The position numbers and the translations under genes were made by a program. The notes beneath the pieces are model-generated. The model searched no databases. It was not told where the DNA came from and saw only the letters and a list, made by a program, of their open reading frames with translations. From positions 14,942,001 to 15,006,000 of the forward strand of contig JAYKYS010000012.1 of the NCBI GenBank assembly GCA_036924285.1: a stretch of 64,000 nt of DNA. The letters are read 5' to 3'. Positions 27,090 through 63,341 of the stretch are shown piece by piece. The stretch comes from Asterella californica (Eukaryota > Streptophyta > Marchantiopsida > Marchantiales > Aytoniaceae). Within the stretch, counting starts at the first letter, position 1, and every line of letters begins with the position of its first letter.

Positions 27090-27486
27090 TGTGACAACCA
27101 TTGCTAGTCGACTTCTGCAAAGCATGACAGTCTTCTGGAGGTGTGAGAAGCCGAGTTGAACCTCCAGAAGCCGAGAATTGCTTCGGGAAGACGGTATTGA
27201 GAAGACCGGAAGAAGTGACCTGGGAGCAGGAAGCGTCTTCCCGAGCTTCTCTGTAGATAGTTGTGTGATATTTTAGTTAATATTTGTTTATTTAGGTCCA
27301 GAGCACCTTCTGACGGGTCTGGAAGACGTGTGGTTTTGTGAGAAGACGGGATTTCTAGACAAAACCCGTGTGTTTGTGTGTTTGAATAGATCTTAGAACT
27401 TAGAGCAGCGTTACTTGTGCAAATCCTCTGTGGGAACGATATCTTGTATACTAAATGGGCAAAAGGAGTAATCATGCGACACTACA
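27090..27486 (+). repeat. Putative 3' LTR of element A2
   Basis: TGTGACAACC ... GACACTACA, homologous to 11367-11764, preceded by the purine-rich GGGATGTGGAAGAGCAAGG. Ends at the junction with the methyltransferase-family fragment, sharing a few CACA bases. Confidence 0.45.
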
Positions 27487-28127
27487 CACATACACAAGTG
27501 TACCACAATCGCCCCTCTAACTGACACTTAGGTCTCTCTAACTCCAAATAGCTCCATATCCCAACTACGCGATATACACCTTCATGGGTGCAAAGATCAG
27601 GAGGCCGGATGCTACATCGCCTCATCGTTAGTCGTCTGTCTGCAATCCATACCACGTAAAGATCTAATCGACTATCACTGTTATATACATCTAGGACAAA
27701 CCCACCGTCCAATAGGAAGGACAGTGAGAGGTGAAGTCAAACATGACATGTGCTAACCTCTCGAACAACCATCACACACCAACATACGGGCTGCTCCACC
27801 AGCAGACCCACGCAACATACATCTCAAGCCAGCGCGTACAACTGCCAAGCATGGGTCAACGGTATCATCGATGTTGAGAAGATGATATGACGTGCAATTA
27901 CGCACATGGTCCTTCCATACAACACCATCACGGCTCTCTAACATGAGTGCTCCAGAAGATAACACCTCACGCACTCATAAAATAGTGCGTCATGCGGTCA
28001 CATCCAAAGTCGTCGGTGCAGTCTACTACAGATAGATATAATCCTCAAGATGAAACCTACGAATCGATGATCGATAACCTCCTCCTCGGATAGTTGCATA
28101 TCGCAACATGTCTCTATGCTGAGCAAT
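27487..28127 (-). pseudogene. Fragment of a methyltransferase-family element: integrase tail and PHD finger
   Basis: Reading on the minus strand, VLSSGALMLESRDGVVWKD, the Cys-rich LRCMLRGSAGG and MLVCDGCSRG match the C-terminus of the integrase/PHD ORF at 48022-49527. The second PHD cysteine is replaced by Arg and the frame breaks. The polypurine tract (about 27510-27520) and the first ~25 bases of the LTR are present, then the sequence abuts A2. The other end is cut at 28127 beside element F2. A second copy of this family is thus present. Confidence 0.75.
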
Positions 28128-33790: not shown

Positions 33791-34280
33791 CACAATGTGT
33801 ATGACATCGTCCATGTGTTGTGTATGTGTGATGTATCTCTGACAGCGATGTATGTTATGTAGCGATGTGTATGCGCACGACAGCTGTCACGTCAGTTTGG
33901 TACCTCGGCTAGGTTGACTGAGTGCAATGTGAATCTCGGTAAGACCGTTAGTGCCATTAGGACAAGTTGGTGAGAGTGCCCACTAGGGATATACTTCGCA
34001 GGTAGGGCTTGGAGACCTCAGTTCTTCAAGTTGAGTCTTCAAGCTCCTGGTTATGGTGGTAGTCTTAGTGCGTACAATTTGGATTCTCTACGAGCACAAA
34101 GTGGATTTGGCTCGACTGTAGTGATTGTGTAGTGTCTGTTGGCTTGGTGGAGTGAGTACATACCCGTTTATCATTGTGGTACACTTGTGTATGTGTATGA
34201 CATCGTCCATGTGTTGTGTGTATGTGTGATGTATCTCTGACAGCGATGTATGTTGTGTAGCGATGTGTATGCGCACGACA
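33791..34280 (+). repeat. LTR of the methyltransferase-element family
   Basis: Has the same order as the 3' LTR at 47340-47849, in the opposite orientation: a ~105-base GT-rich segment (X), GC, a ~290-base middle (Y, starting TGTCACGTCAG) and a second X ending GCGCACGACA. The first X lacks its first bases and there is no clear target duplication, so this is a 5'-trimmed solo LTR or the terminal fragment of a lost element. The Y part is diverged from the one in the full element. Confidence 0.7.
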
Positions 34281-44871: not shown

Positions 44872-46241
44872 TGTCGCGCTACTTGGCGGCTACATGCTTG
44901 ACTTCTACTCCGACGCTTAGGTTTAGTAGTTCTAGAAGTTAGCTCATATTACTTCTAGTCCTTTATATATATGTTTGACACCTTTGCATACGGTGTTAAT
45001 ACTATTTTGAGTCCTAGTAGGCTGATAGTATGCTAGTTCTCTTGTTCAAGCATTTGTGCGCTTGGGCAAGTGACTTCTTACTTGTCTATGACGTTCAATG
45101 CACATAACTTAGGGTTTCCATGCTGATAGGGGTTTGAGCTCATGGGTTGTACTTACTTGTCGCCCATGCACGCTTTCTAGCTGATTTAAGTTATTTTTTG
45201 GGCCTGCGTGTCGTTTTAGGTAGTTTAAGTTTTACGCTGGCACTCTAGGGAGCTTGACGTGGTAGCCTATGAGTAAAACTAAGTTGCCACGTGGTTTAGG
45301 GTACTAAAGGACAACCAAGTGGAGCTATGAACTCCCATTGGTCTGTTTTTGTCTTTTGTAAACTCTAAATTTAGAAACAGAGCTCTAGAGTGGAGTTCGA
45401 GCATTTGGTGAGGGATCTTCGAAATCTGAGAGCACAGAGAGAGAGGGCTCGTCATGCCAAGCACTTCCAGTGAAAATTTCGATCGATTTGAGTCAATAAA
45501 GACGGAGTTATGAGCAATTGAAGTTCGGATTGTGCCAAAACTGAATCACTTTGTTGGATTTAGGGTTTTCAGTGTCACTCGCAGCAGATTTGAGGAAATT
45601 GCTTCAAAACTTCGAGGTTGTGTTCTGTGCCAGCAGGGCTACGATTTCACAAAAAGTTTCATATCGATTGAGTGACTGAGTAATTCAGGGTGGCCGCTGA
45701 AGCAGAGGGGGTCTGAAAAGCTCTTAATCTAGAGCAGCGACTTCAGGGAGGGAGATCTGGAGTTCTACAAACAATCAGGAGTCCCAACTTCACAGGAGTG
45801 TTCAGGAAGCTGTGAACTGCAAATCCTGTAAGAAACTTCGAAATTGATCAAGCCAAACTCCTGTTATAGGTTGAAATAGCCGTCTAGGTACCAGAAATTG
45901 CCATAGTTTTCTTGCTCAAAACTTTTCTGTTCATATCTCCGTGTCAGAATTTGATCTCAGGCTGAAATTTCGTCTGTGAGTTCAGTAGTACCTCATTTGC
46001 ATGTAGGGGAAGTTTAGAGGTCTAAACCTTCATAGTTTTCCTCTCCGTGAGTGTCAAAGTTCACCGCCGGATCTTATTACTGCCAGCTAGACCTGAATTT
46101 CGCCTTCTGGGTACATTACTAGATCTTACACTTCTGTGTGAGTGTTTATAGCCCTGTTGTAACCTGAAAGCCAACCTCTTGAGTGAACAACCACAGCCAG
46201 AAGCCCGGCGCTTTCCTAAGTAGACGGATTACACTCCGACA
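44872..46241 (+). repeat. 5' LTR of element C
   Basis: TGTCGCGCTACTTGG ... CTCCGACA, 1370 bases, collinear with 61972-63341. A TATA-like TTTATATATATG occurs at 44962-44973. Apparent short ORFs inside are duplicated in the other LTR and not coding. Confidence 0.92.
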
Positions 46242-46316: not shown

Positions 46317-47339
46317 ATGGCCAACCAAGGATCATCAAGTGGAGGTGCTGCTGCTTCTCAGCAACCTGTTCAGCTTGATGCTGCTACGATGAAGATGTTC
46401 CAAGCTTTTTCCATGTTCATGCAGCAGCAGCAGAGCACAGAGAGGAAGGAGGTATTAGCAACCAAGGCATTGCAATCTGTGGTGCATCAGATGGACCAGT
46501 CAAGGGGACAGATATTTCCAAGTACGTGCGATACTATGCTAGGGAGATGGAGGTAAACAAGGTACCTGAGAAGGAGATGGTGGAGAACTTTGAACTTGCT
46601 GTTGTGCCTGAGATTCGTGGGCGTGTGAAGGAGCTCAAGCAGCAGCAAGGACAGAGTTGGGAGAGCTTTATGCGCGCTTTGAAGGAGGAGTACTACATTG
46701 AAGATTCAGAGAGGGTGACCAAGAGAACGTTCTTGGAGTGGGTGGTTAAGCCCAACAAAGGTTTGTCTGTAAATGAGTTGTTAAGGGAATTTGATCGTCA
46801 GTATGCTCAGCTTTCTAGGACAGAAAAGCTTACATTAGAGGTGGAGAAGACCGAGCTTTTCCTACAAGCAGCGGACGTGACTATTCAGGAGAAGCTTGAG
46901 CTGTTGCTGGAAGACAAGAGTGAGGAGAGAGGATTGAAGACTGACTGGAAGGAGGTTGAAAAGGCTGTCTCTTTGTTGACCAAGAGACAGAGAAGAAGGG
47001 ATAAGGTGGTGGTAAGTGAAGCAGCACCTTTGATAATTCCTGTCAAGCAGTTGCCTACTAAACCCGCTTTGGTAATTGCTAGAGAGGAAGACTCACCGCT
47101 TGATGAGTTGATTAAGGGTGTGAAGGAGCTTAAGCTTAAGCTCACTAGGTTAGAAGAGAAGGAGCAGAATGTACAGCCTGCTATGCAGAGACCTCAGATG
47201 AGAGAAGGCTTTGTTCATCGTTGTATATGGTGTGATAGCCTAGACCATGTAAGAAGAGATTGTGGGGAGTTTTCAGATGCATTGAGGAAGGATCTGATCT
47301 TCTTCAAAGATGGTAAGATCCATCTGAGAGAGACTGGGA
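46317..47339 (+). pseudogene. gag: Element C gag, N-terminal part
   Basis: ATG 46317 opens a Gly/Ala/Gln-rich start and QLDAATMKMFQAFSMFM. A one-base loss near 46500 (just after QMDQ) shifts the frame; in the next frame the capsid core runs DISKYVRYYAREMEVNKVPE, FMRALKEEYY, KRTFLEWVVKP, LLREFDRQYAQLSRTEKLTL, then the LTRLEEKE segment and a CCHC knuckle CIWCDSLDHVRRDC (C-X2-C-X4-H-X4-C). At codon boundary 47339/47340 the nested element interrupts; the frame resumes without loss at 57112. Confidence 0.88.
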
Positions 47340-47849
47340 TGTCGTGCGCATACACATCGCTACACAACATACATCGCTGTCAGAGAAACACCACACATAC
47401 ACATAACACATGGACGATGTCATACACATACACAAGTGTACCACAATAATCTGAATACAGAGATTACCATCTCCAACACCACAACAAGGATTACTCACAA
47501 ACGGTCAAGCCAAACCCACTCTAAACGCGAAGAGAATCCAGGTTACACTCAACTAGACTATCCACCATAGCCTGGAGCTTGAAGGCTCAACTCAAAGAAC
47601 TAAGGCCTCCAAGCCCTACCTGCGAAGTTTACCCCTAGTGGACTCTCCTCCCAACTCGTCCTAACGGCACTAACGGCCTTACCGGGATGCGCCACTTCGC
47701 ACTCGGTCAACCTAGCCGAGGTGCCCAAACTGACGTGACAGCTGTCGTGCGCATACACATCGCTACACAACATACATCGCTGTCAGAGAAACACCACACA
47801 TACACATAACACATGGATGATGTCATACACATACACAAGTGTACCACAA
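47340..47849 (-). repeat. 3' LTR (X-GC-Y-X) of the methyltransferase element
   Basis: On the minus strand: X (107 bases, 47849-47743, starting TTGTGGTACAC), GC, Y (294 bases, 47740-47447, starting TGTCACGTCAG), and X again (47446-47340, ending GCGCACGACA). X is rich in GTGTATG. The segment follows a polypurine tract and borders the GGGA target site. The other end of the element has only Y. Confidence 0.8.
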
Positions 47850-47850
47850 T

Positions 47851-47862
47851 CGCCCCCCTAAC
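47851..47862 (-). other. Polypurine tract of the methyltransferase element
   Basis: On the minus strand GTTAGGGGGGCG directly precedes the first X segment. The fragment at 27487-28127 has a similar G-rich tract in the same place (near 27510). Confidence 0.65.
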
Positions 47863-48021
47863 TGGCGGTTAGGTCCCTCTAACTCCAGATAGCTCCATAT
47901 CCCAACTACGTGATACACACCTTCATGGGTGCAAGGATCAGGAGGCCGGGTGCTACATTGCCCCATCGTTAGTCGCCTGTCTGCAATCCATACCACGCAA
48001 AGATCTAATCGACTATCTCCG
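47863..48021 (-). other. Short 3' non-coding region of the methyltransferase element
   Basis: About 160 bases between the integrase/PHD stop and the polypurine tract; also conserved in the fragment at 27520-27700. Confidence 0.5.
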
Positions 48022-49527
48022 CTATATACATCGAGGACAAACCCACCGTCCAGTAGGAACTACACTGAGAGGTGGAGTCAAACATGACATGTGCCAACCT
48101 CTCGAACAACCATCACACACCAACATACGGGCTGCTCCACCAGCAGACCCACACAACATACACCTCAAGCCCGCGCGTACAACTGCTAAGCTTGGGTCAA
48201 CGGTACCATCAATGTTGGGAAGATGACATGGCGCGCAATTACGCACATGGTCCTTCCACACAACACCATCACGGCCCTCTAACATGAGTACTCCAGAAGG
48301 TAACACCTCACGCACTCGTAAAATAGTGCGCCCTGCGGTCACGTCCAACGTCGTCGGTGCAGTCTGCTGTAGATAGATATAATCGCCAAGATGAAACCTG
48401 CGAATCGACGGCCGATAACCTCCTCCTCGGATAGTCGCATACCGCAACGTGTCTCTATGCTGGGCAATCGCTAGGTTCTCAAAAGCCATAGGCATAACTC
48501 TCCGAAATGTCTCTGCTCGTTGAGAACATGCTCTCACCCACATATCCGGGTCATCAAGGTCCAGCACCTCAGTAGAATCACGACGAATGGCCGAAGGTAG
48601 ATCTGGATCTCGGCCATACAATAAGAAATACGGTGAGAAGGAAGCCAAAGATGCTTGTCGGCTAAAACGGTAGCCCATAGCCAACCATGGTAACTGCACA
48701 TCCCAGTCTCCCAAGTGGCCCTTCTGCAAGCCATACTTGCGCAATCCTCTCTTCACCGTCTGAACTACCCTCTCCGCCAAACCATCCGCCTCAGGATGAT
48801 CTCGAGATGTAGTTCGATGATCAATCAGCGCCTGATCACACAAGGCCTGAAACTCACCAAGGAACTCTGTACCTTGGTCTGTCAGCACTTCAGCTGGTGC
48901 TCCGAAACGACTCAGCACTCGATCTAAGAACGCGTACGCCGTCCCTTCACTCGCCTTGTCTGGTAATGCCACCAACTCAATCCACTTGGAGAAGTGCTCC
49001 ACCATCACCAACACATACCGGTGGTGACGTACGGTCAACGGTAAGGGTCCCGCAAAATCCAAACTCCAACGGTAACCCAACCCCATAATCGATAAGGGGT
49101 GTAACTGTGGAGTAGGAGCATTAAACGATGCTCGTACTCGATCACAAACCACACATCGTGCGACAAACCGTTGCACATCGATGTGCATACCACGCCACCA
49201 ATATTGTCCTTGGAGTAAGCTATGCGTACGCTTCACTCCAAAATGTCCCAACTCCTCATGGGCATGTCGTACTAACTGTGCCCTCTGGGATGGATGTGGC
49301 ACTATCCGTACTCTCCCATCACCCCACACTCGAAGTACATGTCGTCCTTCTCGTCGAAATCTCTTTGCTCGTTGAAGGACACGATCTCGCTCCTTGGCAC
49401 TTACTGTGCCTACTACCACACCAGTACGTAGATACTCCATCACGGTCACATCATCATGGATATCTCGCTGGTGAAATGACTCTCTCTGAAACACCATCTC
49501 CACCCTCATGATCTGGAGACTCATCAT
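48022..49527 (-). CDS. pol: Integrase with C-terminal PHD finger
   Basis: 501 aa from ATG 49527 (the frame overlaps the RT ORF by 74 bases). The HHCC zinc domain is at ~H90/H95 and C125/C128; the DDE core is D157 (WSLDFAG), D217 (LTDQGTEF) and E252 (EADGLAER). After a C-terminal basic/SH3-like region (HLGDYIYLQQ, VLMLEGRDGVVWKDHVR), residues ~456-501 form a complete PHD finger: CMLC, MLVCDGC, GWHMSC, GRWVCPRC (Cys4-His-Cys3 pattern). Many plant Ty3 elements carry a chromodomain here to direct integration; a PHD finger could read histone H3 tails in the same way (inference). All catalytic residues are present. Confidence 0.92.
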   Translation of the reverse strand: MMSLQIMRVEMVFQRESFHQRDIHDDVTVMEYLRTGVVVGTVSAKERDRVLQRAKRFRREGRHVLRVWGDGRVRIVPHPSQRAQLVRHAHEELGHFGVKRTHSLLQGQYWWRGMHIDVQRFVARCVVCDRVRASFNAPTPQLHPLSIMGLGYRWSLDFAGPLPLTVRHHRYVLVMVEHFSKWIELVALPDKASEGTAYAFLDRVLSRFGAPAEVLTDQGTEFLGEFQALCDQALIDHRTTSRDHPEADGLAERVVQTVKRGLRKYGLQKGHLGDWDVQLPWLAMGYRFSRQASLASFSPYFLLYGRDPDLPSAIRRDSTEVLDLDDPDMWVRACSQRAETFRRVMPMAFENLAIAQHRDTLRYATIRGGGYRPSIRRFHLGDYIYLQQTAPTTLDVTAGRTILRVREVLPSGVLMLEGRDGVVWKDHVRNCAPCHLPNIDGTVDPSLAVVRAGLRCMLCGSAGGAARMLVCDGCSRGWHMSCLTPPLSVVPTGRWVCPRCI

Positions 49528-51160
49528 TTACTCTCTGACCAGAGAAAGATACGACTTGGCCCTCCATACTAGAGTTCATGGCCAACACACAAAGAAAGGC
49601 AGATGCATGCCACCCTGGCACTATCTCCTCATCAACCTCGTCATGCCAGCGAGCCCCAGTCTGATCCTGCTGACTCGTGCACGGGTTGCGACTCAACCCG
49701 TCGGCATCTAGGTTTGCAACTCCAGGTCTATGTACTACCTGGAAGTCATACTCCTGTAAGATCAGAGCCCATCGTGCAAGCTTCCCTGTAAGCTTGTCGG
49801 ACTCCATCAACCACTTGAGCAGCTGGTGATCAGTGATGAGAGTAAAGGGGTTCCCAAACAGATAACATCGAAAGTGTGCAACAGCCCACACTGCCGCCAA
49901 ACACTCTCCCTCATACGAACTATACCTCGCCTCCGCTGAATTGTTGGAGCGACTGGCATACGCCACCACGAACTCCTTTTTCTCATCATCATGCTGAGTC
50001 AGCACTGCTCCAAGTCCTAACATACTCCAATCGGTGTGCAGTTGGAAAGGACGCCCCCTAACGGCTCTCCTCAAGATGGGAGCAGATGTCAACCTATCCT
50101 TGAGCTCTACAAAAGCTCGCTCCTGCTCATCTCCCCACTGCCACTCCTGGTCCACCTTCATCAGCTTGGTCAACGGCTTCGCAATTGCACTAAACCCTTT
50201 CACGTATCGACGATAGAAGTTCGCCAAACCAACAAATGCTCGAACTCGACTCACATCTGTGGGGCGTGAGATACGTGCAATAGCCTCAACCTTCGTCTGT
50301 TGAACACCCAATCCACCTGGATAGATGGTGTGGCCCAGATACTCTACCAACTCCTGGAAGAACTTACACTTCCCAGGGTGTAACTTCAACCCATGAGCTC
50401 TCAACCGCTCAAACACATCCCGTAAGTGTCTCTCGTGCTCCTCCACTGTAGCACTATAGACTAAGATGTCGTCAATATAACATCTGACAAAATCCAATCC
50501 TGCTAGGATTCTGTCCATCACCCTTTGGAACTCAGCAGGGGCGTTCTTCAACCCAAATGGTAAGAACCGCCACTGATACAAACAATCCTTGCCGTGAGAG
50601 TCAATTCCCCAAAATGCTGTCTTGGACTTATCTTCTTCTCTCACTGGCAACTGATGATACCCTGCTCGAAGATCCAAAGTACTGAAGACCTTCACATGCC
50701 CCACTGCATCAAAGATCTCCTCAGGTGTCGGCATGGCATACTTATCGGACTTCGTCTGCCGATTGATAGGACGGTAGTCTCCACACATCCGCCTATCCGT
50801 GTAGTTGCCATACATATCCTTCTTGGCTGACATAACTGTGGCAGATGCATACTCTCCATGCGACATCTCCACCAACCCAGCCTCCAACAAGTCTTGAGTC
50901 CGACTCTGGATCAAGGCTCTCTCCATGTCACTGTACCTGTAAGGACGTCGAAAGATTGGCGTGTCATTAGCCAAGTCGATCCGTATACCAGGTCCCTTCA
51001 AGGTACCCAAATCCTTCATACTGAAGGCAAAACAATTCCTGTAGCTCTTCAGGAATCTTTGGACTCTTCGTCTCTCCTCTCCTATAAGCTTGGGTCCGAT
51101 CTCCGGCTCCCAAGTATCCTCTGTCACCATGCTAGAGGTAGAAGACGAAGTCGTTGACTG
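49454..51160 (-). CDS. pol: Reverse transcriptase and RNase H
   Basis: ATG 51130 begins 558 codons; the frame is open back to the TAG at 51161-51163. RT fingers/palm: RRMCGDYRPINRQT, FSTLDLRAGYHQL (catalytic Asp ~153), FLPFGLKNAPAEFQRVM, YIDDILVYS (~218-226), EYLGHTI, then RAFVGLANFYRRYV. RNase H: LHTDWSMLGLGAVL, SYEGECLA, LITDHQLL, VANLDADGLSRNP with the acidic set intact. It is a standard Ty3/gypsy RT, of a different lineage from elements B and C. The C-terminal ~25 residues overlap the integrase ORF in another frame. Confidence 0.93.
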   Translation of the reverse strand, partial: QSTTSSSTSSMVTEDTWEPEIGPKLIGEERRRVQRFLKSYRNCFAFSMKDLGTLKGPGIRIDLANDTPIFRRPYRYSDMERALIQSRTQDLLEAGLVEMSHGEYASATVMSAKKDMYGNYTDRRMCGDYRPINRQTKSDKYAMPTPEEIFDAVGHVKVFSTLDLRAGYHQLPVREEDKSKTAFWGIDSHGKDCLYQWRFLPFGLKNAPAEFQRVMDRILAGLDFVRCYIDDILVYSATVEEHERHLRDVFERLRAHGLKLHPGKCKFFQELVEYLGHTIYPGGLGVQQTKVEAIARISRPTDVSRVRAFVGLANFYRRYVKGFSAIAKPLTKLMKVDQEWQWGDEQERAFVELKDRLTSAPILRRAVRGRPFQLHTDWSMLGLGAVLTQHDDEKKEFVVAYASRSNNSAEARYSSYEGECLAAVWAVAHFRCYLFGNPFTLITDHQLLKWLMESDKLTGKLARWALILQEYDFQVVHRPGVANLDADGLSRNPCTSQQDQTGARWHDEVDEEIVPGWHASAFLCVLAMNSSMEGQVVSFSGQRVNDESPDHEGGDGVSERVISPARYP

Positions 51161-52129
51161 CTATCTTGCAGCCTCTGGAGCAGTTTCCTTCTGCTCACCA
51201 CCAACAACCTCCACCGCTACTGTGTGTAAAACTTCTGCAGTTCTAGCTGCAAACTCCACACTCTCTCTTATGACATCCCATGATGTCCAAGGATGACGAA
51301 CTCCACGTGCCTCGCCCCCAGCCTTTGCCTCCACCGACCCGGTAGGCAAAGAGCTCAAGAGTGCTCGAGCAGTAACACCCGTCGATCGCATCCGACGCTG
51401 TTCAGCCAATCCAAGACTAACAATCCATGTCAAGCAATTCAAGTCCATTGCTTGACCCAATACTTGACGACGTGCAGCCTCCGACACCGAAGCTACTGCC
51501 GTCGTACCCGTAGTGAAACCCATCGCTCGCTCTCTCTCATCGGCATTGGGCTCCACCAACTGCCGTAATTGAGCATCCCACACAAGCCCAGGTCCTCCAT
51601 CTCTGTAAGCATGTGACGCTGGAAAGCTTACCAATGTGGGTAACGCTACCATGGACCGTCCCACTAGGTTCACCACTGCCATGGGTGACCTATCGACGAC
51701 TCTCACTACTTGAGATCGTCGTCCTGCATCCAAGATGCTATCAACAGTGAGATGTGCTGGTCGTCTCACTCCATCGTGTGCTCGCTTAAGCACCTCTCTC
51801 GGTAACAAGTTCGTCCACCACAACCGTGGACGATGTGCACGAGATCCTACTCTCGCTGCATCTAACAACACTGCTGGTCCAATCCAAGACCGCACTTGGT
51901 GCACACTCGCCATCATCTGTGTACGAGCATCACCCAACAAAGGAACGTTCTCCAAGATGTACGCTGGAGAATCCATCTGATGCATCTGGAGATGTCGTAA
52001 GATCCGTAACATCTCCCAGAACATCCTAGATCGCGGGTCATGTAAACCCTGACCTCTCCCTACACGCGTGTGACCTTGACATGGCCATCCGGCTATCACC
52101 AAGTGAATGGTGCCCACAAACGTAAGATC
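51161..52129 (-). CDS. DNMT3-like cytosine-C5 methyltransferase, catalytic half
   Basis: Same frame as the ORFs on both sides, bounded by TAG 52130-52132 and TAG 51161-51163. Motif IV: LVIAGWPCQG with the catalytic Cys at 52079-52081. Then DPRSRMFWEMLRIL, motif VI ILENVP, motif VIII-like DAARVGSRAHRPRLWW, and the C-terminal motif IX/X region ERAMGFTTG ... ARRQVLGQAMDLN. These match DNMT3/DRM enzymes, which set DNA methylation de novo. The target-recognition part between motifs VIII and IX is about 90 residues. An Ala/Glu-rich linker leads to RT. The S-adenosylmethionine-binding motif I is in the preceding piece, across one stop codon. Confidence 0.9.
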   Translation of the reverse strand, partial: DLTFVGTIHLVIAGWPCQGHTRVGRGQGLHDPRSRMFWEMLRILRHLQMHQMDSPAYILENVPLLGDARTQMMASVHQVRSWIGPAVLLDAARVGSRAHRPRLWWTNLLPREVLKRAHDGVRRPAHLTVDSILDAGRRSQVVRVVDRSPMAVVNLVGRSMVALPTLVSFPASHAYRDGGPGLVWDAQLRQLVEPNADERERAMGFTTGTTAVASVSEAARRQVLGQAMDLNCLTWIVSLGLAEQRRMRSTGVTARALLSSLPTGSVEAKAGGEARGVRHPWTSWDVIRESVEFAARTAEVLHTVAVEVVGGEQKETAPEAAR

Positions 52130-54049
52130 CTACGCCCCCAGCAGCGAAATATCCGACGGTAATGCTTGTTGGTATCCTCTAACAGCTGATATGGGCAACA
52201 ACTCAGGATATCTCAGCACCAAACGTGCCACATGTCGCAATGAGATGCGTCTCGTAATCTCATCTCTCTCCACATACAAGTATCGCTGTACTTGTATACC
52301 TGCCTGCAATACCGCAGCCAAACCTGTGCTGATCCCTCCAAACAGCTCCAGCACACATACACCTTCCTCTGGATACTGCCACACAATGGGAGTCGTATCC
52401 AACGGTGATAAGGTCACAGGGTCAGTAGCAGGAACAACCCTTTGTTCCTCTACTGGTGATACAAAAGCTTCACTCCAAGCCTGCTGCACCAACTGATCAG
52501 CATACTGCTGCAACTCTCCACTCGAACTCCAAAGTGGCACATCCAAGGCAGATGGTATTAACGTAGACATGCTAGGCATGTCCTCCACCTCCTCATAGAT
52601 CGGAGTATCCTCCGCATGGACATTACCCTCCAACAACTCGTCCGGCCAAGTGATGATCGAACTGAACCCTGCAACGGATGTCATCGTTCCTGGTGTAGGC
52701 TCCGTCGTCCCAACTCTAGCACTGAACCGCACTGGTAAGCGGCTCACTCGTCCCTCACCGGACTGCCAACCTGGTCTGTAAGATGCTGTCTCTGCCCAAT
52801 AGTCAATCACGAACCCCATAGGGTACAACACAGCACCTCCCACCAATACATCATAAGACTCTGCGGCTGTAACAATGGCCTTGGCCTTCACCATAGAGCC
52901 ATCCGTGGGGTGATCTGGCCGAACTCTCACCGTCAACATCTCCCGTGTCATGTGTAGAGCCGTACCTCCTGATCCCCCTAGAGATGTCTGCAACTGGAAT
53001 GGACATCTCTCTATCTCGGACTTCTTCAGACCCAAACCAATACACGCCGCCTTTCCCAACATTAACGGTTGGGCTCCAGAGTCTAACAAGACCTTCTGGG
53101 GTCGATACACTTTCCCTGAAGGTGCCACCAAACAGAAGATACCACTTCTGTTGTCCAACAACACCACACCTGGTGCCAAACTAGCACGGTCAATCGCCGG
53201 CCTAGCTGGTAACTCATCTAACCTAGCAGCCGCCGCTTGCCAAGTACCACTGGTAGCTGTCCTGATCCTCGACTCCATGGACACGTCTACCGCCTCTCGC
53301 TGAACTACTTCAGCACTAGAGGTAACTACATCCTCGCTCTCACTGAGCGTGGCCGCCAACTGGAACACTGGAGCCAAGTTGACTCCCAATGCCCTCATAT
53401 CCGTGGCTGAGAATAGTGGGGCTCGCAAAACTGCTGTAGCCGCCCCCAACATCGGGTTCGACGTCGCATCCACAGACGTCGAAGGTGGACTCACATCACA
53501 CCCACTCCTGGATGTCGATGCCTCCAACTCTACTGCACCATCGGTAGGTTGTTTAAGAACCATAGATGTGGTCCTCAACGCCTCCGATAACGTGAACGAT
53601 TGGGGAAGCCTGGCTTGTCTACCAGCCTCCCCGCGTTGTGGATCCAACTCCACTGACGCACCTCGTGGCTCAGAGGCACGCACTGCACCTCTAGTCACTG
53701 CTGCAGATGCCTCAATCTGCGCCACACCAGCCATGAAGTCGAAGTCACCTCCTTCTCCTCCATAAGACGTGGAAGCCTCTGTTCCACCTGATCTCCGCTG
53801 AGCCATAGCCATACTAGCTATCTTCTGCTCCAACTGCTCAATCCGAGCAGCCATACCTGCTTCCGACGTTGTAGCAGGCGGTGGACCGACCGGTCCTCTC
53901 CCAGGTGCTGGACCTCTACCTCCAGCTCGACCACCACGGCCTCCCTGAGCTCCTCCGCCTCGTCCACGATCAGCCTTCCCTTGCCGCAACTCGGGATGGA
54001 GATCAAAACAACGGTCACTACTGTGACCAGGTCGTCCGCAATGCTCACA
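52130..54049 (-). CDS. Nucleocapsid knuckle, protease and methyltransferase motif I
   Basis: In frame with gag, starting right after its TAA (54050-54052). The first residues are a CCHC knuckle, CEHCGRPGHSSDRC, then an RG/GP-rich basic region, a helix (ARIEQLEQKIASM) and a long Ser/Ala-rich linker. The retropepsin has its active site at VLLDSGAQP (Asp about 303 residues after the 53989 codon) and a VLVGGAVLYPMGF segment. The C-terminus holds methyltransferase motif I, VLELFGGISTGLAAVL (52307-52354), GIQVQRYLYVERDE (motif II) and LPSDIS (motif III region) before the TAG at 52130. No ATG lies near the start, so expression requires stop readthrough or an originally fused ORF. Confidence 0.88.
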   Translation of the reverse strand, partial: CEHCGRPGHSSDRCFDLHPELRQGKADRGRGGGAQGGRGGRAGGRGPAPGRGPVGPPPATTSEAGMAARIEQLEQKIASMAMAQRRSGGTEASTSYGGEGGDFDFMAGVAQIEASAAVTRGAVRASEPRGASVELDPQRGEAGRQARLPQSFTLSEALRTTSMVLKQPTDGAVELEASTSRSGCDVSPPSTSVDATSNPMLGAATAVLRAPLFSATDMRALGVNLAPVFQLAATLSESEDVVTSSAEVVQREAVDVSMESRIRTATSGTWQAAAARLDELPARPAIDRASLAPGVVLLDNRSGIFCLVAPSGKVYRPQKVLLDSGAQPLMLGKAACIGLGLKKSEIERCPFQLQTSLGGSGGTALHMTREMLTVRVRPDHPTDGSMVKAKAIVTAAESYDVLVGGAVLYPMGFVIDYWAETASYRPGWQSGEGRVSRLPVRFSARVGTTEPTPGTMTSVAGFSSIITWPDELLEGNVHAEDTPIYEEVEDMPSMSTLIPSALDVPLWSSSGELQQYADQLVQQAWSEAFVSPVEEQRVVPATDPVTLSPLDTTPIVWQYPEEGVCVLELFGGISTGLAAVLQAGIQVQRYLYVERDEITRRISLRHVARLVLRYPELLPISAVRGYQQALPSDISLLGA

Positions 54050-55081
54050 TTACCTAGGTACTGCTTGAGACGTCCCTGATGTCCCTGACGTCTCATAACC
54101 TCTCCTCTGTGGACAGTCCCTCTGCTGATGAGGACCATCACATGTCCAGCAAGGACCCGCTTGCTGCTGACTAGAGAAAGACGGCATGGGCTTCTGCCCA
54201 CCAGATCCTCCTACACCTCCCTGCGATCGTGACTGCTCTGCACGATCCTTACCACCACCACCACCACGCTGTTGCGTAGCCTGTGATCCTCGAGAAGAGG
54301 TGGTCGCTCCATGTGGTGTCTCCTTGCTGAACCCAGCAACCACCACCCTCTCCTCCACCATGTTGAGCTCAATCCGCTCAGCCAGACTAAAGACAACCGC
54401 CAACGTCGGAGCGGTATCTCTAAGAAGAGTAGCATCTCTAACTCTCCTACGCAGCTCCCGGTCTAGTATCCCATACCAGAACTGGACTGCCTGTGCTTCC
54501 GTCACCCCTTGGGTAACGCTGATCAACCGCCTCATGCGAGTAAACGCCTCGCGTAGGCTCTCTCCAGTCTTCCGCTGGAACTCCTGCAGACTCCTCAACT
54601 TGTCGGTCCGCACACCCTGATAGTTCTTCCTCAAACATTGGAAGAACTGAACCACAGGGTTAAACCCTGGTGGTATCCCGCTCACACTACCACCTGCTCC
54701 ACTACTTGTGGATGCACCGGTAGTAGGTACTCCGCCACCTGTGGCTGCACCACTGCTACTGGCACCCGAACTCGCAGGTGCTACGTCTCCCGAAACTGCG
54801 CCAGTAGTGATAGAAACGTAGTTGGGAGACCAATGTTGTCTCCACAACTCGATCTCAACACTGTAATCTCGCCTGAACTCATGATAATCGTCCATCGGCG
54901 GTCCCTCCAAGTGCTGGAACAAACCCTTCCACGCCATGAAGGGTGTAAACAGCTGTGGGTTCCGCATCTGCTGCAGATCGCACCAACTGTCGAACTCCTG
55001 GATGAAGTCATCCAGCTCAATGGTACCAACTGTACCCGAGTAACGTCGAGGCCCTTTCGTGGCCCCATAGATCTCGTCCAT
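54050..55081 (-). CDS. gag: Gag capsid/nucleocapsid
   Basis: From ATG 55079-55081 about 343 codons (the frame is open slightly further up). N-terminal RRYSGTVGTIELDDFIQEFD, a Gly/Ser/Ala-rich linker, and the retrotransposon gag core VVQFFQCLRKNYQGVR, LRSLQEFQRKTGESLREAFT, GILDRELRRRVRDATLL. The C-terminus is Gly/Arg-rich with a knuckle CWTCDGPHQQRDC (C-X2-C-X3-H-X4-C). It ends at TAA 54050-54052, after which the same frame continues with a second knuckle and protease. Confidence 0.9.
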   Translation of the reverse strand: MDEIYGATKGPRRYSGTVGTIELDDFIQEFDSWCDLQQMRNPQLFTPFMAWKGLFQHLEGPPMDDYHEFRRDYSVEIELWRQHWSPNYVSITTGAVSGDVAPASSGASSSGAATGGGVPTTGASTSSGAGGSVSGIPPGFNPVVQFFQCLRKNYQGVRTDKLRSLQEFQRKTGESLREAFTRMRRLISVTQGVTEAQAVQFWYGILDRELRRRVRDATLLRDTAPTLAVVFSLAERIELNMVEERVVVAGFSKETPHGATTSSRGSQATQQRGGGGGKDRAEQSRSQGGVGGSGGQKPMPSFSSQQQAGPCWTCDGPHQQRDCPQRRGYETSGTSGTSQAVPR

Positions 55082-56817
55082 GTCCCACAACAACGGTGTT
55101 GCGACACTAGACTCACCACCAGAAAACGCGCTGTCTGCGTCTTACTCGTCCTCTGGAACAACCGACGGTAATGGTGTAGGTAGTCGGTACCTCACCCCAC
55201 TCCGTGTATACCCACTGTCCGAGAAGTCCCCACCAGAACCTCCCGAGAACTCTGTGATGAGAGAATCCCGCTAAGACACTCCCCAACCGGAATGTCGCAA
55301 TCTCCGTCACCACCGTAACCACCACTTGCCTAACCCCGCTCCTACTGAGCTCACCTATCCCCTACTAGGACGGTCAAGGTAAGGGCAACCTGTACCTGCC
55401 ATCACCACAGGCAGCCTCTCACGGTCTGTTGGTCGTCACTCCAACCGCACCGTGAGAGAGACAAAGATAGTCTGACTGGTCCGCAACTCCAGCCTCACTA
55501 TCGACAGCACACTGGAGTGAACTCACTCCGGAAATCAAGCGCCAACACAAGCAAACGCGGCGCACAAACAGGAAGCAGAGTATGGAGGGGTTCCAACCAC
55601 AAGAAGTCCAAACGATAACCCTCCACACTCAAACATTCACATAAAGAGAAACCCAGCCCCACCCGGACTGACGACTCCTTGTCGGTGACCACATGCACAA
55701 TATATGATCACCAACAGTCGTAACTGACACTGGAGGTCACTAACTAGATGTCCACACCTCTAGTAGCTCCAAAAACATCCACGTGATAGCTCTACTAGCT
55801 CACCCAAGACAACTGCCACCAATTGCCTCCATACGCGCCTCTACGGTGTAGGCAAACACTACCACAACTATAGCTTCCCCCTAACACTGTGGGGTCGCCC
55901 TACCACTCCTCTAGGGACGTGCGAGAAGGTCTCCTACTACCTTATACAAGTCCATAAGTACTTGCACGCATCCCTGTAGGACACCAAGAGCTATTGGTCT
56001 AGTGGTAAAGCCAAAGCTAAGACTACAGATCAGGAGTCCAGGTCCACGAATAGTGTTGGGATGGGTGACCAGCTGGTTTTACCCTTCCCACACACCTGAA
56101 GCTTGGATACCTCTCTCACGCACGCCAGCAAGCTGGCTTGCGGCGGGCGCGGGCTCGGGCTCAGGCTCAGCTCAGCTCCGCTCCGCCTCCGCACTCTCGC
56201 ACTCCGCTCTCACGCCTCCGCACTCACGCACCTCTGCTCCTCGAAGAGCCTCCAAATCCAACCCGAACACCATCAAAACAGATTCGCAAATGCACCACAC
56301 ACACTTCGCGGATGCACACACACACAAAACAACTACTAAACTCGAGTTTCCTCACGAAATTGAGCCAAAATCTGACGTAACTAGCCTTTTAGTGCTTACG
56401 GGTTTCACGGCAGCGAACTTCGACATGCCATAACTTCTTCAATCCTTGGCCAAACTCCACGAAACTTAGTGCGCTAGAATCGTCTCTCCAATGCGCTTCC
56501 AAAGAGTCCACTCCGGCCCGACATTGACAAGTATTTCAGCTGCTACGCCCAAACGCGCAATCCGGCTCCAACAACACACTTCAAGAACATTCCGCAAAAT
56601 TTCTGCAGCGCTTCCGCATGACAGAAATCTCCACTCAACCCCAACAACAGCAAATCGATCTGCGACAGCAATGTAGCACGGCGCCCACACACCTCGATCA
56701 CAGCTCCAAACAATCAACCACGAACAACAACGCCCGAAGATACCAGCGGACGATTTCCGATTTCAGATCTGCGAGCTCTTACTGAACTCCGTCTCGACCT
56801 GCACTCAGTTCTTTGAG
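55082..56817 (-). other. Leader of the methyltransferase element
   Basis: About 1.7 kb between the 5' LTR segment and gag, without a coherent ORF on the minus strand. It includes a plus-strand Pol III-like segment at 55985-56090. I could not find a primer-binding site starting TGG beside the LTR end. Confidence 0.5.
55985..56090 (+). other. tRNA/5S-like sequence (possible SINE or Pol III remnant)
   Basis: TTGGTCTAGTGGTAAAGCC fits the A box of a tRNA gene (TRGYNNARNGG). About 60 bases on, TGTTGGGATGGGTGACC resembles the 3' internal region of plant 5S rRNA (TACTGGGATGGGTGACC). No complete cloverleaf or full 5S can be built, so it is a remnant or chance resemblance. Confidence 0.3.
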
Positions 56818-57111
56818 TAATCTGAATACAGAGATTACCATCTCCAACACCACAACAAGGATTACTCACAAACGGTCAAGCCAAACCCACTCTAAACGCG
56901 AAGAGAATCCAGGTTACACTCAACTAGACTATCCACCATAGCCTGGAGCTTGAAGGCTCAACTCAAAGAACTAAGGCCTCCAAGCCCTACCTGCGAAGTT
57001 TACCCCTAGTGGACTCTCCTCCCAACTCGCCCTAACGGCACTAACGGCCTTACCGGGATGCGCCACTTCGCACTCGGTCAACCTAGCCGGGGTGCCCAAA
57101 CTGACGTGACA
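56818..57111 (-). repeat. 5' LTR of the methyltransferase element (Y only)
   Basis: 294 bases, TGTCACGTCAG ... CAGATTA on the minus strand, differing from Y in the 3' LTR at two positions. It borders GGGA at 57112-57115. Neither of the two flanking X segments of the 3' LTR is present. Confidence 0.75.
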
Positions 57112-58464
57112 GGGATGATGTTGGGAACCAACTTTGGCAAGGGTGGTATGAAGAGGCTTGTGAATGAGATATCAGCATCACATGTTGTTTCTCTTGTGAA
57201 TGTTGCTACGTGTGGAGTGAAAGTGGAAATGGAAAGAGAGAAAGGGACTACTGGGTTGTGGTCTGATGTAGTGCGGTCCGTAGCTAGAATAGAGTTAGAC
57301 AAGGATGTGCTACGGAGGGTTGGCAACTCAATTCGAGAAACTACAGGATGGAATGACCCTGTGGACACTATGTCAGTGCATGCTTTTGTTGCAAGAAGTC
57401 AGCATGAAGCTCTACTAGAAGAAAAACGCAGGAGAGAGGATGCAGGTGAGGCTTCTACAGCCAAACGACCTGCTACAAGGAGTGAAAGGGCTAGACCAGA
57501 GGCAAGGCAGGAGACAACACCTACTCGGGAGGAGACTATGGAGGATCTACCACCTACAACACCAAAGGAGAAGGAGAGAAGCAAAGAGAAGGGTAAGATG
57601 CCTGCATACAAACTTCAGTCTGACATTGAGATTGCTACAGACTTGAAGCAAGTGTTAGAGAATCGTATCTTGAATGGGAAGGTTGAGTTTACCCTGGGTG
57701 AGATTCTTGGGATTGCAAAGCGTGAGTTCCATGAGGTTATCATAGATATCATCAAGAGGAAACGTCAGATTTTGGGTGAAGCAGCTACGCTTAATGCTCT
57801 AGGGACCAAACTATCGGAGGATGAGGAAGATGAGATTGCTGGTTACTGCTCTCAAGTATCAGAGGGGAGATCCTATCAGCACGTGAGGTTTGAAGATGAG
57901 GTGGAAGCATCACAGAAGAGCCATTACTCTCACAACCATTGGACAAGAGCAACCACAGAGACCTTAGTGAAGCTGGGAGATCTAGAGGAACCTGTGGTGG
58001 CGTTGATTGATCATGGCTCAGAGATTAATCTGATGTCTAAGGAGCTGTACAAGCGTGGGAGATGGCCCATAGACACCGACCATGGATGGCTTATCCGCGC
58101 TGCCAACAACCAGAGGGGAGAACTCTATGGTGCTTGTCCCAACATCAAGGTAACTGTGGGTGACATCAGTGATGTTCAGAATTTCTTTGTACAAGACATG
58201 TCAACCTATCTTATCATTCTAGGGCAGCCTTACATTACTGCTGTGAGAATGGAGACACGAGTTATGGATGATGGTTCAGCCTTTGCTATGATACGTAGTA
58301 GAGACGGCAAAAGAGCTGTTCAGTTTTTGACCGTTGCTGCAGAACATGAGAGGAATCGTGATAGCTTGAGAGACCGTCCACTACCTAAGATTACTCAGGA
58401 GTTTAGAGAGTCTAGGGGTTTTGGCAGAGTACCATTGAAGAGCGAGACTTCAACGGTACAGTAG
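57112..58464 (+). pseudogene. Element C gag C-terminus and protease
   Basis: Resumes exactly in frame with 47339 (GMMLGTNFGKGGMKR). A basic/acidic linker (RRREDAGEAS, PTTPKEKERSKEKGK) leads to a retropepsin-type domain with VVALIDHGSEINLMSKELY (active site DHGS rather than DTGS/DSGS), LIRAANNQRGELYGACPNIK and LIILGQPYITAVRME. The frame is lost by a one-base change near 58430-58440; this reading frame then ends in TAG at 58462-58464, while the adjacent frame continues with DFNGTVEIGFSPDPVKQ. Confidence 0.85.
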
Positions 58465-61971: not shown

Positions 61972-63341
61972 TGTCGTGCTACTTGGCGGCTACATGCTTG
62001 ACTTCTACTCCGACGCTTAGGTTTAGTAGTTCTAGAAGTTAGCTCATATTACTTCTAGTCCTTTATATATATGTTTGACACCTTTGCATACGGTGTTAAT
62101 ACTATTTTGAGTCCTAGTAGGCAGATAGTATGCTAGTTCTCTTGTTCAAGCATTTGTGCGCTTGGGCAAGTGACTTCTTACTTGTCTATGACGTTCAATG
62201 CACATAACTTAGGGTTTCCATGCTGATAGGGGTTTGAGCTCATGGGTTGTACTTACTTGTCGCCCATGCACGCTTTCTAGCTGATTTAAGTTATTTTTTG
62301 GGCCTGCGTGTCGTTTTAGGTAGTTTAAGTTTTACGCTGGCACTCTAGGGAGCTTGACGTGGTAGCCTATGAGTAAAACTAAGTTGCCACGTGGTTTAGG
62401 GTACTAAAGGACAACCAAGTGGAGCTATGAACTCCCATTGGTCTGTTTTTGTCTTTTGTAAACTCTAAATTTAGAAACAGAGCTCTAGAGTGGAGTTCGA
62501 GCATTTGGTGAGGGATCTTCGAAATCTGAGAGCACAGAGAGAGAGGGCTCGTCATGCCAAGCACTTCCAGTGAAAATTTCGATCGATTTGAGTCAATAAA
62601 GACGGAGTTATGAGCAATTGAAGTTCGGATTGTGCCAAAACTGAATCACTTTGTTGGATTTAGGGTTTTCAGTGTCACTCGCAGCAGATTTGAGGAAATT
62701 GCTTCAAAACTTCGAGGTTGTGTTCTGTGCCAGCAGGGCTACGATTTCACAAAAAGTTTCATATCGATTGAGTGACTGAGTAATTCAGGGTGGCCGCTGA
62801 AGCAGAGGGGGTCTGAAAAGCTCTTAATCTAGAGCAGCGACTTCAGGGAGGGAGATCTGGAGTTCTACAAACAATCAGGAGTCCCAACTTCACAGGAGTG
62901 TTCAGGAAGCTGTGAACTGCAAATCCTGTAAGAAACTTCGAAATTGATCAAGCCAAACTCCTGTTATAGGTTGAAATAGCCGTCTAGGTACCAGAAATTG
63001 CCGTAGTTTTCTTGCTCAAAACTTTTCTGTTCATATCTCCGTGTCAGAATTTGATCTCAGGCTGAAATTTCGTCTGTGAGTTCCGTAGTACCTCATTTGC
63101 ATGTAGGGGAAGTTTAGAGGTCTAAACCTTCATAGTTTTCCTCTCCGTGAGTGTCAAAGTTCACCGCCGGATCTTATTACTGCCAGCTAGACCTGAATTT
63201 CGCCTTCTGGGTACATTACTAGATCTTACACTTCTGTGTGAGTGTTTATAGCCCTGTTGTAACCTGAAAGCCAACCTCTTGAGTGAACAACCACAGCCAG
63301 AAGCCCGGCGCTTTCCTAGGTAGACGGATTACACTCCGACA
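61972..63341 (+). repeat. 3' LTR of element C
   Basis: 1370 bases collinear with the 5' LTR; substitutions seen near 61976, 62123, 63003, 63084 and 63320. Followed by CCGG (63342-63345). Confidence 0.92.

Follow-up and report, generated by a model that had tools for sequence, protein, structure and literature searches.

Retrotransposons carrying a DNA methyltransferase (DNMT) were described in 2018 (de Mendoza et al. 2018, PMC5890265), and a later paper citing that work places some DNMT3 members in long terminal repeat (LTR; 'Copia') and DIRS elements of streptophytes and dinoflagellates (PMC12344493). The closest of the described elements is KnitGypsy-Dnmt3 of Klebsormidium nitens, and the dinoflagellate Symbiodinium harbours SymbioDIRS-Dnmt3 and SymbioLINE-Dnmt; these and other published systems are considered here through the accessible parts of the cited papers, among which PMC6338049 and PMC10538959 held nothing further on DNMT retrotransposons. 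Here we describe a DNMT-bearing Ty3/gypsy element in a 64,000-nt stretch of the Asterella californica genome (contig JAYKYS010000012.1, positions 14,942,001 to 15,006,000), the whole of which is called the window. The element occupies 47340..57111 on the minus strand, as do all of its parts given below, and is about 9.77 kb long (9.8 kb in round figures) with TG...CA ends and GGGA on both flanks (47336-47339 and 57112-57115). In element sense its parts follow the order gag, protease, DNMT, reverse transcriptase (RT), RNase H (RH), DDE integrase (IN) and PHD finger, and thus hold the order PR-RT-RH-IN with a DDE integrase that is proper to Ty3/gypsy. The best explanation of the observations as a whole, to which we give a probability of roughly 0.6, is a streptophyte Gypsy-Dnmt3 element whose second open reading frame (ORF2) would be reached by readthrough from ORF1, which would integrate from a circle, and in which PHD finger and DNMT would both have roles.

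The Dnmt3-like catalytic domain lies at 51390..52366, where the preliminary description of this DNA had placed it, and all the motifs claimed there were recovered: I (VLELFGGISTG), IV (GWPCQG), VI (ENV), the HRPR of motif VIII and the C-terminal GQAMDLN block. Motif names follow general usage for C5-methyltransferases. Motifs I, IV (PCQ/PCN), VI (ENV), VIII and X stand in unpermuted order, unlike in host locus L013, where they are arranged in DRM-like fashion, permutation of the motifs being the mark of DRM enzymes. Pfam PF00145 matched residues 4-66 of the translated piece 51161-52117 (E = 2.9e-8, 34 bits, cut-off 22), and a PDB sequence search with the same piece gave DNMT3A/3B as best matches (E = 4e-7). 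A profile of 19 relatives matched DNMT3A at 1.5e-19, followed by the 'DNA methyltransferase' 4onj, which we take to be a DRM (1.9e-9), DRM2 (2.8e-7), M.HhaI (2.1e-5) and a DNMT2-type enzyme (1.5e-4); by these E-values the domain is nearer to DNMT3A/3B than to DNMT2, DRM or bacterial enzymes, and DNMT1 was not among the 51 matches of the profile search. When Foldseek was run with the predicted model of a 71% identical relative (P0002, mean pLDDT 66), the 50 best of 155 matches (E ≤ 0.001) were DNMT3A/3B/3C. In a tree of 33 rows, 10 element DNMTs formed one clade on a long stem with support of 100/100. Judged from its sequence, the domain is a C5-methyltransferase of the Dnmt3 type, and on this the preliminary description was right, as it was in recalling that the principle of a retrotransposon-borne DNMT had been published.

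The element DNMT clade takes in the host family, metagenomic relatives and L007, a 9.3-kb contig from a cyanobacterial bin (CADCWO010000201.1) that encodes a Gypsy-Dnmt3-PHD element. The clade is not nested with the host's own Dnmt3 (L012), and no clear sister group was obtained for it in this tree, which contained no animal DNMT3 of known name and from which P0079 and P0062 were left out, the motif-I cut having failed. A scan of genome contigs with the domain returned L007 and four Streptomyces C5-methyltransferase loci, the latter picked up via conserved patterns such as IA[GR]WPCQ; two of these loci (L008 and L010) fell far from the element clade, and the idea that the DNMT came recently from bacteria was therefore rejected. 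No close relative was found in viral scans with the single domain protein or with the domain alignment, the latter giving only six weak matches of 34-48% over 31-59 residues. L007 is probably a streptophyte-alga element misbinned among cyanobacteria, that is, eukaryotic contamination. Its ends are an identical 127 nt, i.e. it is circular in the assembly graph. Compared with one host-genome copy it is 31% identical in gag, 41% in protease, 50% in DNMT, 64% in RT-RH, 72% in IN and 65% in the PHD finger.

The window copy is itself broken. Its gag region (54050..55093; Retrotrans_gag E = 0.008, below the Pfam cut-off), which is the gag part of a ~1370-aa frame in other copies, is interrupted by a stop at 54050-54052. 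The following ORF (52130..53989) holds the remaining gag, the protease (LLDSGAQ) and the N-terminal DNMT portion that contains motif I; a Pfam scan of it on its own gave no match, and the protease was identified by its alignment with ORF1 of L007, in which alone Asp_protease_2 was matched, at E = 7.8e-4 and below its cut-off. An in-frame TAG (52130..52132) then breaks the DNMT between motifs I and IV. Within ORF2 the part for RT and RNase H (49454..51130; RVT_1 3e-33, RT_RNaseH 9.5e-36) and the frame-shifted part for the DDE integrase with its C-terminal PHD finger (48022..49527; rve 2.1e-14, Integrase_H2C2 1.5e-17) lie in different frames. A leader of ~1.6 kb (about 55100-56817) separates the 5' terminal repeat from the gag frame, and the first methionine of the ~1370-aa frame stands ~60 codons in, so that the translation start is ambiguous. 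The DNMT had been described as lying inside a polyprotein; its position between protease and RT, in one frame with both, holds, but it belongs to a Gag-protease-DNMT frame with its own stop and not to the RT polyprotein.

Intact relatives of this copy are plentiful in the host genome (516.7 Mb searched). A protein search gave 4112 first-look candidates, 125 of which were scored; all 125 were 96-100% identical to the 318-aa piece and took in the whole of it or all but its first residue (1-318 or 2-318), so the match of the DNMT element is not due to chance. No stop occurs within the match in 106 of them, and in 46 an uninterrupted frame of 1366-1383 aa spans the window's stop site. A one-off capture, the refutation that the preliminary description had envisaged, is not borne out by these 125 domain-carrying matches, although members without the domain were not sought as such. 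A frame of 322 aa, as the stop at 52130-52132 would give, was seen in four of the 125 copies including the window, as if they descended from one copy already stopped within the DNMT. A candidate divergent DNMT at 69.6% identity (L043) was rejected as a frameshifted copy. The host also has its own Dnmt3-like gene (L012), which runs over two or more frames and is probably interrupted by an intron, as well as a DRM-like gene whose motifs are permuted (L013); the element family therefore coexists with ordinary plant-type DNMTs. The copies are young, since paired repeats within them differ by only ~0.47% (28/5989).

The DNMT domain is under purifying selection. The ratio of nonsynonymous to synonymous polymorphism (pN/pS) was 0.13 (18 nonsynonymous : 45 synonymous) for variants shared by at least two of 16 copies with unbroken ORF1. 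Shared variants of the same copies gave 0.17 for gag and 0.21 for protease, and 12 copies with unbroken ORF2 gave 0.05 for both RT-RH and IN; those in the PHD finger were too few for a ratio (0 nonsynonymous, 1 synonymous). For DNMT singletons the value was 0.36. Two points count against the explanation as a whole: the sample was picked for open frames, which lowers pN/pS, and the ORF1 tail after the DNMT (54 columns) is unconstrained, with 6 nonsynonymous and 0 synonymous shared variants.

Outside the host genome, 254 protein matches were found at E ≤ 1e-3, the best 120 of which were examined. Among the matches listed, proteins of Sphagnum troendelagicum, S. jensenii, Calypogeia fissa, Marchantia polymorpha, M. 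paleacea and Riccia sorocarpa showed 60-77% identity. Protease is joined to DNMT in a Calypogeia protein (P0101) and DNMT to the start of RT in a Riccia gene model (P0031), and the domain order is therefore the same as in the host element.

As to function, the most likely role, at about even odds, appears to be that of a functional Dnmt3-type enzyme whose target is the DNA of its own element. The DNMT would place CG methylation on the cDNA or circle of that element, either ahead of integration or during it; such self-methylation is plausible, and action on the element's own DNA has been proposed earlier for retrotransposon DNMTs (PMC5890265). Less probable, falling somewhat below an even chance, is that the DNMT does not act on the element's cDNA but is a passenger, has host chromatin, RNA or rival elements as its target, or serves to dampen the element. 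That alternative draws on the 2018 discussion, where the roles of retrotransposon DNMTs are stated as unclear (PMC5890265), and on the decay of the copies, in which C>T singletons per 1000 sites were 116 (CG), 138 (CHG) and 89 (CHH) in ORF1 and 75, 87 and 34 in ORF2. Decay in all three contexts speaks for plant-type host methylation of the copies after insertion and is silent on any mark on cDNA. Two results are to be set against the proposed role: neither a CG-only mark nor CpG depletion is visible, CpG observed/expected being 0.75 in the element and 0.72 in the rest of the window, and in yeast the domain of KnitGypsy-Dnmt3 did not methylate DNA, a result that its authors call inconclusive, human DNMT3B having failed too (PMC5890265). 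Against a passenger stand the purifying selection on the domain, the single DNMT clade common to L007, metagenomic relatives and the host family, the existence of moss and liverwort relatives, and the placement of the DNMT inside the Gag-protease frame.

This placement bears on how much DNMT would be made. ORF1 ends in TAG CAG TCA (51155..51163), a readthrough-type signal of the form UAG-CAR-YYA, which is the readthrough signal of tobamoviruses (PMC3542737). ORF1 reaches this signal in 17 of 20 large copies, picked for long ORF1, and in 12 of those 20 a full-length ORF2 (1038-1041 aa) follows in the same frame. The stop context TAGCAGTCA is retained in 37 of 38 other aligned distinct copies, the remaining one having a 2-nt deletion (L046 and L053, two of 40, could not be placed, and the duplicates L014-L019 were left out of the count); the stop at 51161-51163 is thus not damage, since 37 of the 38 have TAG there. 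L007 is built alike, with gag-protease-DNMT (1158 aa), TAG CAA TCA and then RT-RH-IN-PHD in the same frame, and its synonymous CAR codon, CAA, differs from the CAG of the host family. We infer that ORF2 is reached by readthrough of this stop. Readthrough would put the DNMT at Gag-protease dosage, in excess over RT, and the enzyme is thus probably made in large amounts. It detracts from this argument that the host-genome copies are young, so that they may have the stop context in common simply through descent, which leaves L007 as the one independent support. Translation of ORF2 by reinitiation or from an independent start is unlikely: a methionine does stand 11 codons past the stop in the host-genome ORF2, and a GTG soon after the ORF1 stop in L007, but the first ATG-type methionine of the L007 ORF2 is more than 100 residues in, and UAG-CAR-YYA was kept by both despite the different CAG/CAA codons.

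The repeats of the element have the order A-int-B-A-B in element sense, which is the order of split direct repeats in DIRS, and identical complete LTRs at both ends, as in ordinary Ty3/gypsy elements, were not found. The 5' end has A only (A1, 56818..57111; 99.3% identical to A2 over 295 nt), and the 3' end has B1 (47743..47850; 108 nt, one mismatch against B2), A2 (47447..47740) and B2 (47340..47447). The window shares this 3' B-A-B block with 17 of 20 large copies; the fetched stretches of L021 and L022 had none and that of L028 had B only. The short target-site duplication of Ty3/gypsy elements was found: among the 18 copies for which both flanks were available, 15 have an exact 4-bp duplication and the others (L023, L035 and L036) match at three of four bases; that of L024 was read by eye, the script having caught an earlier match. 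Immediately before B1 lies a polypurine tract (PPT), TTAGGGGGGCG (47851..47861). A G-rich tract stands in this place in all 19 copies with B1, in 17 of them exactly as in the window, and the tract-plus-B1 signature TTAGGGGGGCGATTGTGG has 497 exact sites in the genome and 0 in the control; the tract sequence TAGGGGGGG is found in L007 too.

Immediately after A1 lies a proposed primer-binding site, CTCAAAGAACT (56807..56817), complementary to an 11-mer inside A, the proposed self-primer AGTTCTTTGAG (56962..56972 in A1). The complementarity was spotted by eye before its shuffle test, in which 2 of 2000 shuffles reached 11 nt. L007 has a 13-nt self-complement, 176 nt apart as against 155 in the host element. 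A tRNA primer site after A1, for which TGG would be expected, was not found by inspection by eye. In Tf1 the first 11 RNA bases pair with the primer-binding site (PMC7175516), and self-priming of the same kind is probable here; the case is lessened by its dependence on base complementarity and by L039, which has no self-priming site.

With the PPT before B1 and the primer site after A1, reverse transcription should therefore give LTRs of the form B.GC.A. It seems somewhat favoured that RT and DDE integrase define different ends, two-LTR circles being inserted via an internal palindrome that mimics the joined-end site. Reverse transcription, probably self-primed as in Tf1, would yield a linear cDNA with LTR = B.GC.A, whose two LTR ends (A|B) would be joined into a circle; the integrase would cut one internal GACA|GC|TGTC palindrome (GACAGCTGTC, 47737..47746, at the B1/A2 joint), and the opened circle would insert with a 4-bp duplication to give an A-int-B.GC.A-B provirus. 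Closure from A to B and one such cut would thus lead to exactly the provirus form that is observed. Integration of retroviruses from a circle was once proposed and later discarded.

The joints were compared among copies. The B1/A2 spacer is exactly GC in all 18 copies having the joint, the window included, and L007, with its G-tract and short B, has the joint ACGACA-GC-TGTCACG as well (ACGACAGCTGTCACG being common to window and L007). Of the 49 A2|B2 joints resolved, which would be the closed ones, 11 do not have the commonest form (61 were tried and 12 were unresolved). In a search of 288 sites, overlapping with that set and by a pattern that detects short inserts only, 17 of the 100 listed departed from the commonest A|B form, one of the 17 by substitution only. 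Among five A..tract..B matches in the genome, four (L113, L114, L116 and L117, the last being the same site as L097 of the 49-joint set) are true A2|B2 joints with B1.A2 upstream that keep GGGGGCG or more of the tract; C52:7703651 shows part of the tract too and was left out of the joint count. The fifth (L115, G000:C526:27698699-27699234) is a mini-insertion in which the beginning of the primer site and the PPT link A to B, with an exact GAGT duplication; it was left uncounted as circle-joint evidence, since a joint with site and tract, a solo recombinant and an internal deletion all fit it. B1 and B2 differ at 7 of 1728 positions within 16 copies as against 2.42 per 108 between copies, a value as low being reached within copies in none of 10,000 permutations, and in 13 of the 16 no other B2 was nearer than the copy's own. 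B1 and B2 are thus homogenised, and B2 therefore derives from the molecule or template that gave B1. L028, an A-int-B only provirus with an exact 4-bp duplication (CCTC), is as would be expected of a one-LTR circle or of B1/B2 recombination. The circle is made less secure by the basis of 18 copies for the invariance of the B-GC-A joint, and by ATT, the commonest A2|B2 joint (38/49), which a templated mechanism would give too.

Such a mechanism would be part of a DIRS-like replication, with split repeats as in the tyrosine-recombinase DIRS/PAT elements, B1-A2 templating end closure and the integrase swapped in. We hold this to be improbable. The repeat order A-int-B-A-B is that of DIRS, and PMC5890265 says likewise of KnitGypsy-Dnmt3; the PPT, however, adjoins B1, and tract remnants at the A|B joint are not predicted where the joint is templated. 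The enzyme here is moreover a DDE integrase, and the 4-bp target duplications and TG..CA ends accord with it; no tyrosine recombinase was found among the Pfam matches of the scanned ORFs. A classification as DIRS was rejected on the rve integrase and 4-bp duplications, and with no phage-integrase match among those ORFs. Least probable of all is an ordinary LTR element, LTR = TG(A)..(B)CA, passively carrying displaced B copies from an old rearrangement: its terminal TG..CA and target duplications are ordinary and DNA repeats can rearrange, but the same 3' block recurs across the large copies, the B-GC-A joint recurs in distant L007, and B1 and B2 are homogenised within each copy, unlike a passive extra B. 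If circle integration is true, this is a retroelement integrating from a circle, and its DNMT gains nuclear circular DNA as a substrate.

The integrase C-terminus is a C4HC3 PHD finger (48025..48177; Pfam E = 6.8e-11). PF00628 was present in 91 of the best 120 integrase relatives, counted by hand from those listed, including proteins of Klebsormidium nitens, Calypogeia, Marchantia and Sphagnum fallax; the 29 without it include many fragments, but also one long K. nitens protein (P0326). P0251 and P0274 of K. nitens are relatives with both IN and PHD. The solved PHD fingers nearest in sequence are those of KMT2C, CHD4, DPF2, KDM5B and PHF12. By analogy with chromodomains on integrases, the finger may help to choose integration sites, and it would read histone H3 to steer integration.

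The element is nested in a second Ty3/gypsy element, a plus-strand one whose gag gene it entered; the continuation of the outer gag reading across the site was judged by eye. Probable LTRs of the outer element lie at 44872-46241 and 61972-63341 and are 99.6% identical over 1370 nt, and both insertions are therefore recent. Elsewhere in the window, fragments related to the 3' end of the DNMT element (27486-28127, 91%) and to the B-A-B block (33795-34280, 84%) were found.

Taken together, the element is probably a member of the streptophyte Gypsy-Dnmt3 lineage and of the same kind as KnitGypsy-Dnmt3, with which it was compared by published description: both are Gypsy elements with an unpermuted Dnmt3 domain, purifying selection and DIRS-like terminal repeats (PMC5890265). 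The principle was thus already published, and what our results suggest beyond it is a wider range of taxa, a DNMT that is likely to be made at Gag level, an integrase with a PHD finger and genomic evidence that points to integration from a circle. Searches of the open-licence literature in PMC brought up no account of DNMT retrotransposons with a PHD finger or a UAG-CAR-YYA stop, nor of any from bryophytes; the main text of PMC5890265 uses none of the words PHD, protease and Ty3. The capture of Dnmt3 by Gypsy would accordingly seem to be not one alga's curiosity; the findings suggest a lineage that is under selection, has been spreading recently and has relatives in mosses, liverworts and Klebsormidium. 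A DNMT at Gag dosage would sharpen the self-methylation hypothesis and make it testable, the same element gains a histone-reader-type module beside the DNMT, and the unexplained DIRS-like repeats of such elements become a concrete and testable integration route.

The self-priming Ty3/gypsy elements Tf1 and Tcn1 likewise have 11 bases complementary to the primer-binding site (PMC7175516). Tf1/Sushi and Tcn1 are chromoviruses (PMC6317226), from which the host element differs in its PHD finger and split repeats. Chromoviruses too carry a histone-reader-type module on the integrase tail, theirs being a chromodomain. SymbioDIRS-Dnmt3 and SymbioLINE-Dnmt are likewise retrotransposons with a DNMT, and the former shares the A-int-B-A-B repeats and has a DNMT active on CG in yeast; these Symbiodinium elements differ in using tyrosine recombinase or LINE machinery and are of independent origin according to the authors (PMC5890265). 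In KnitGypsy-Dnmt3 the DNMT is placed in the Pol polyprotein ORF (PMC5890265), whereas in the host element its ORF is Gag-protease-DNMT and ends at a readthrough-type stop; the host element is further set apart from KnitGypsy-Dnmt3 by its integrase PHD finger, its hundreds of genome copies and its moss and liverwort relatives.

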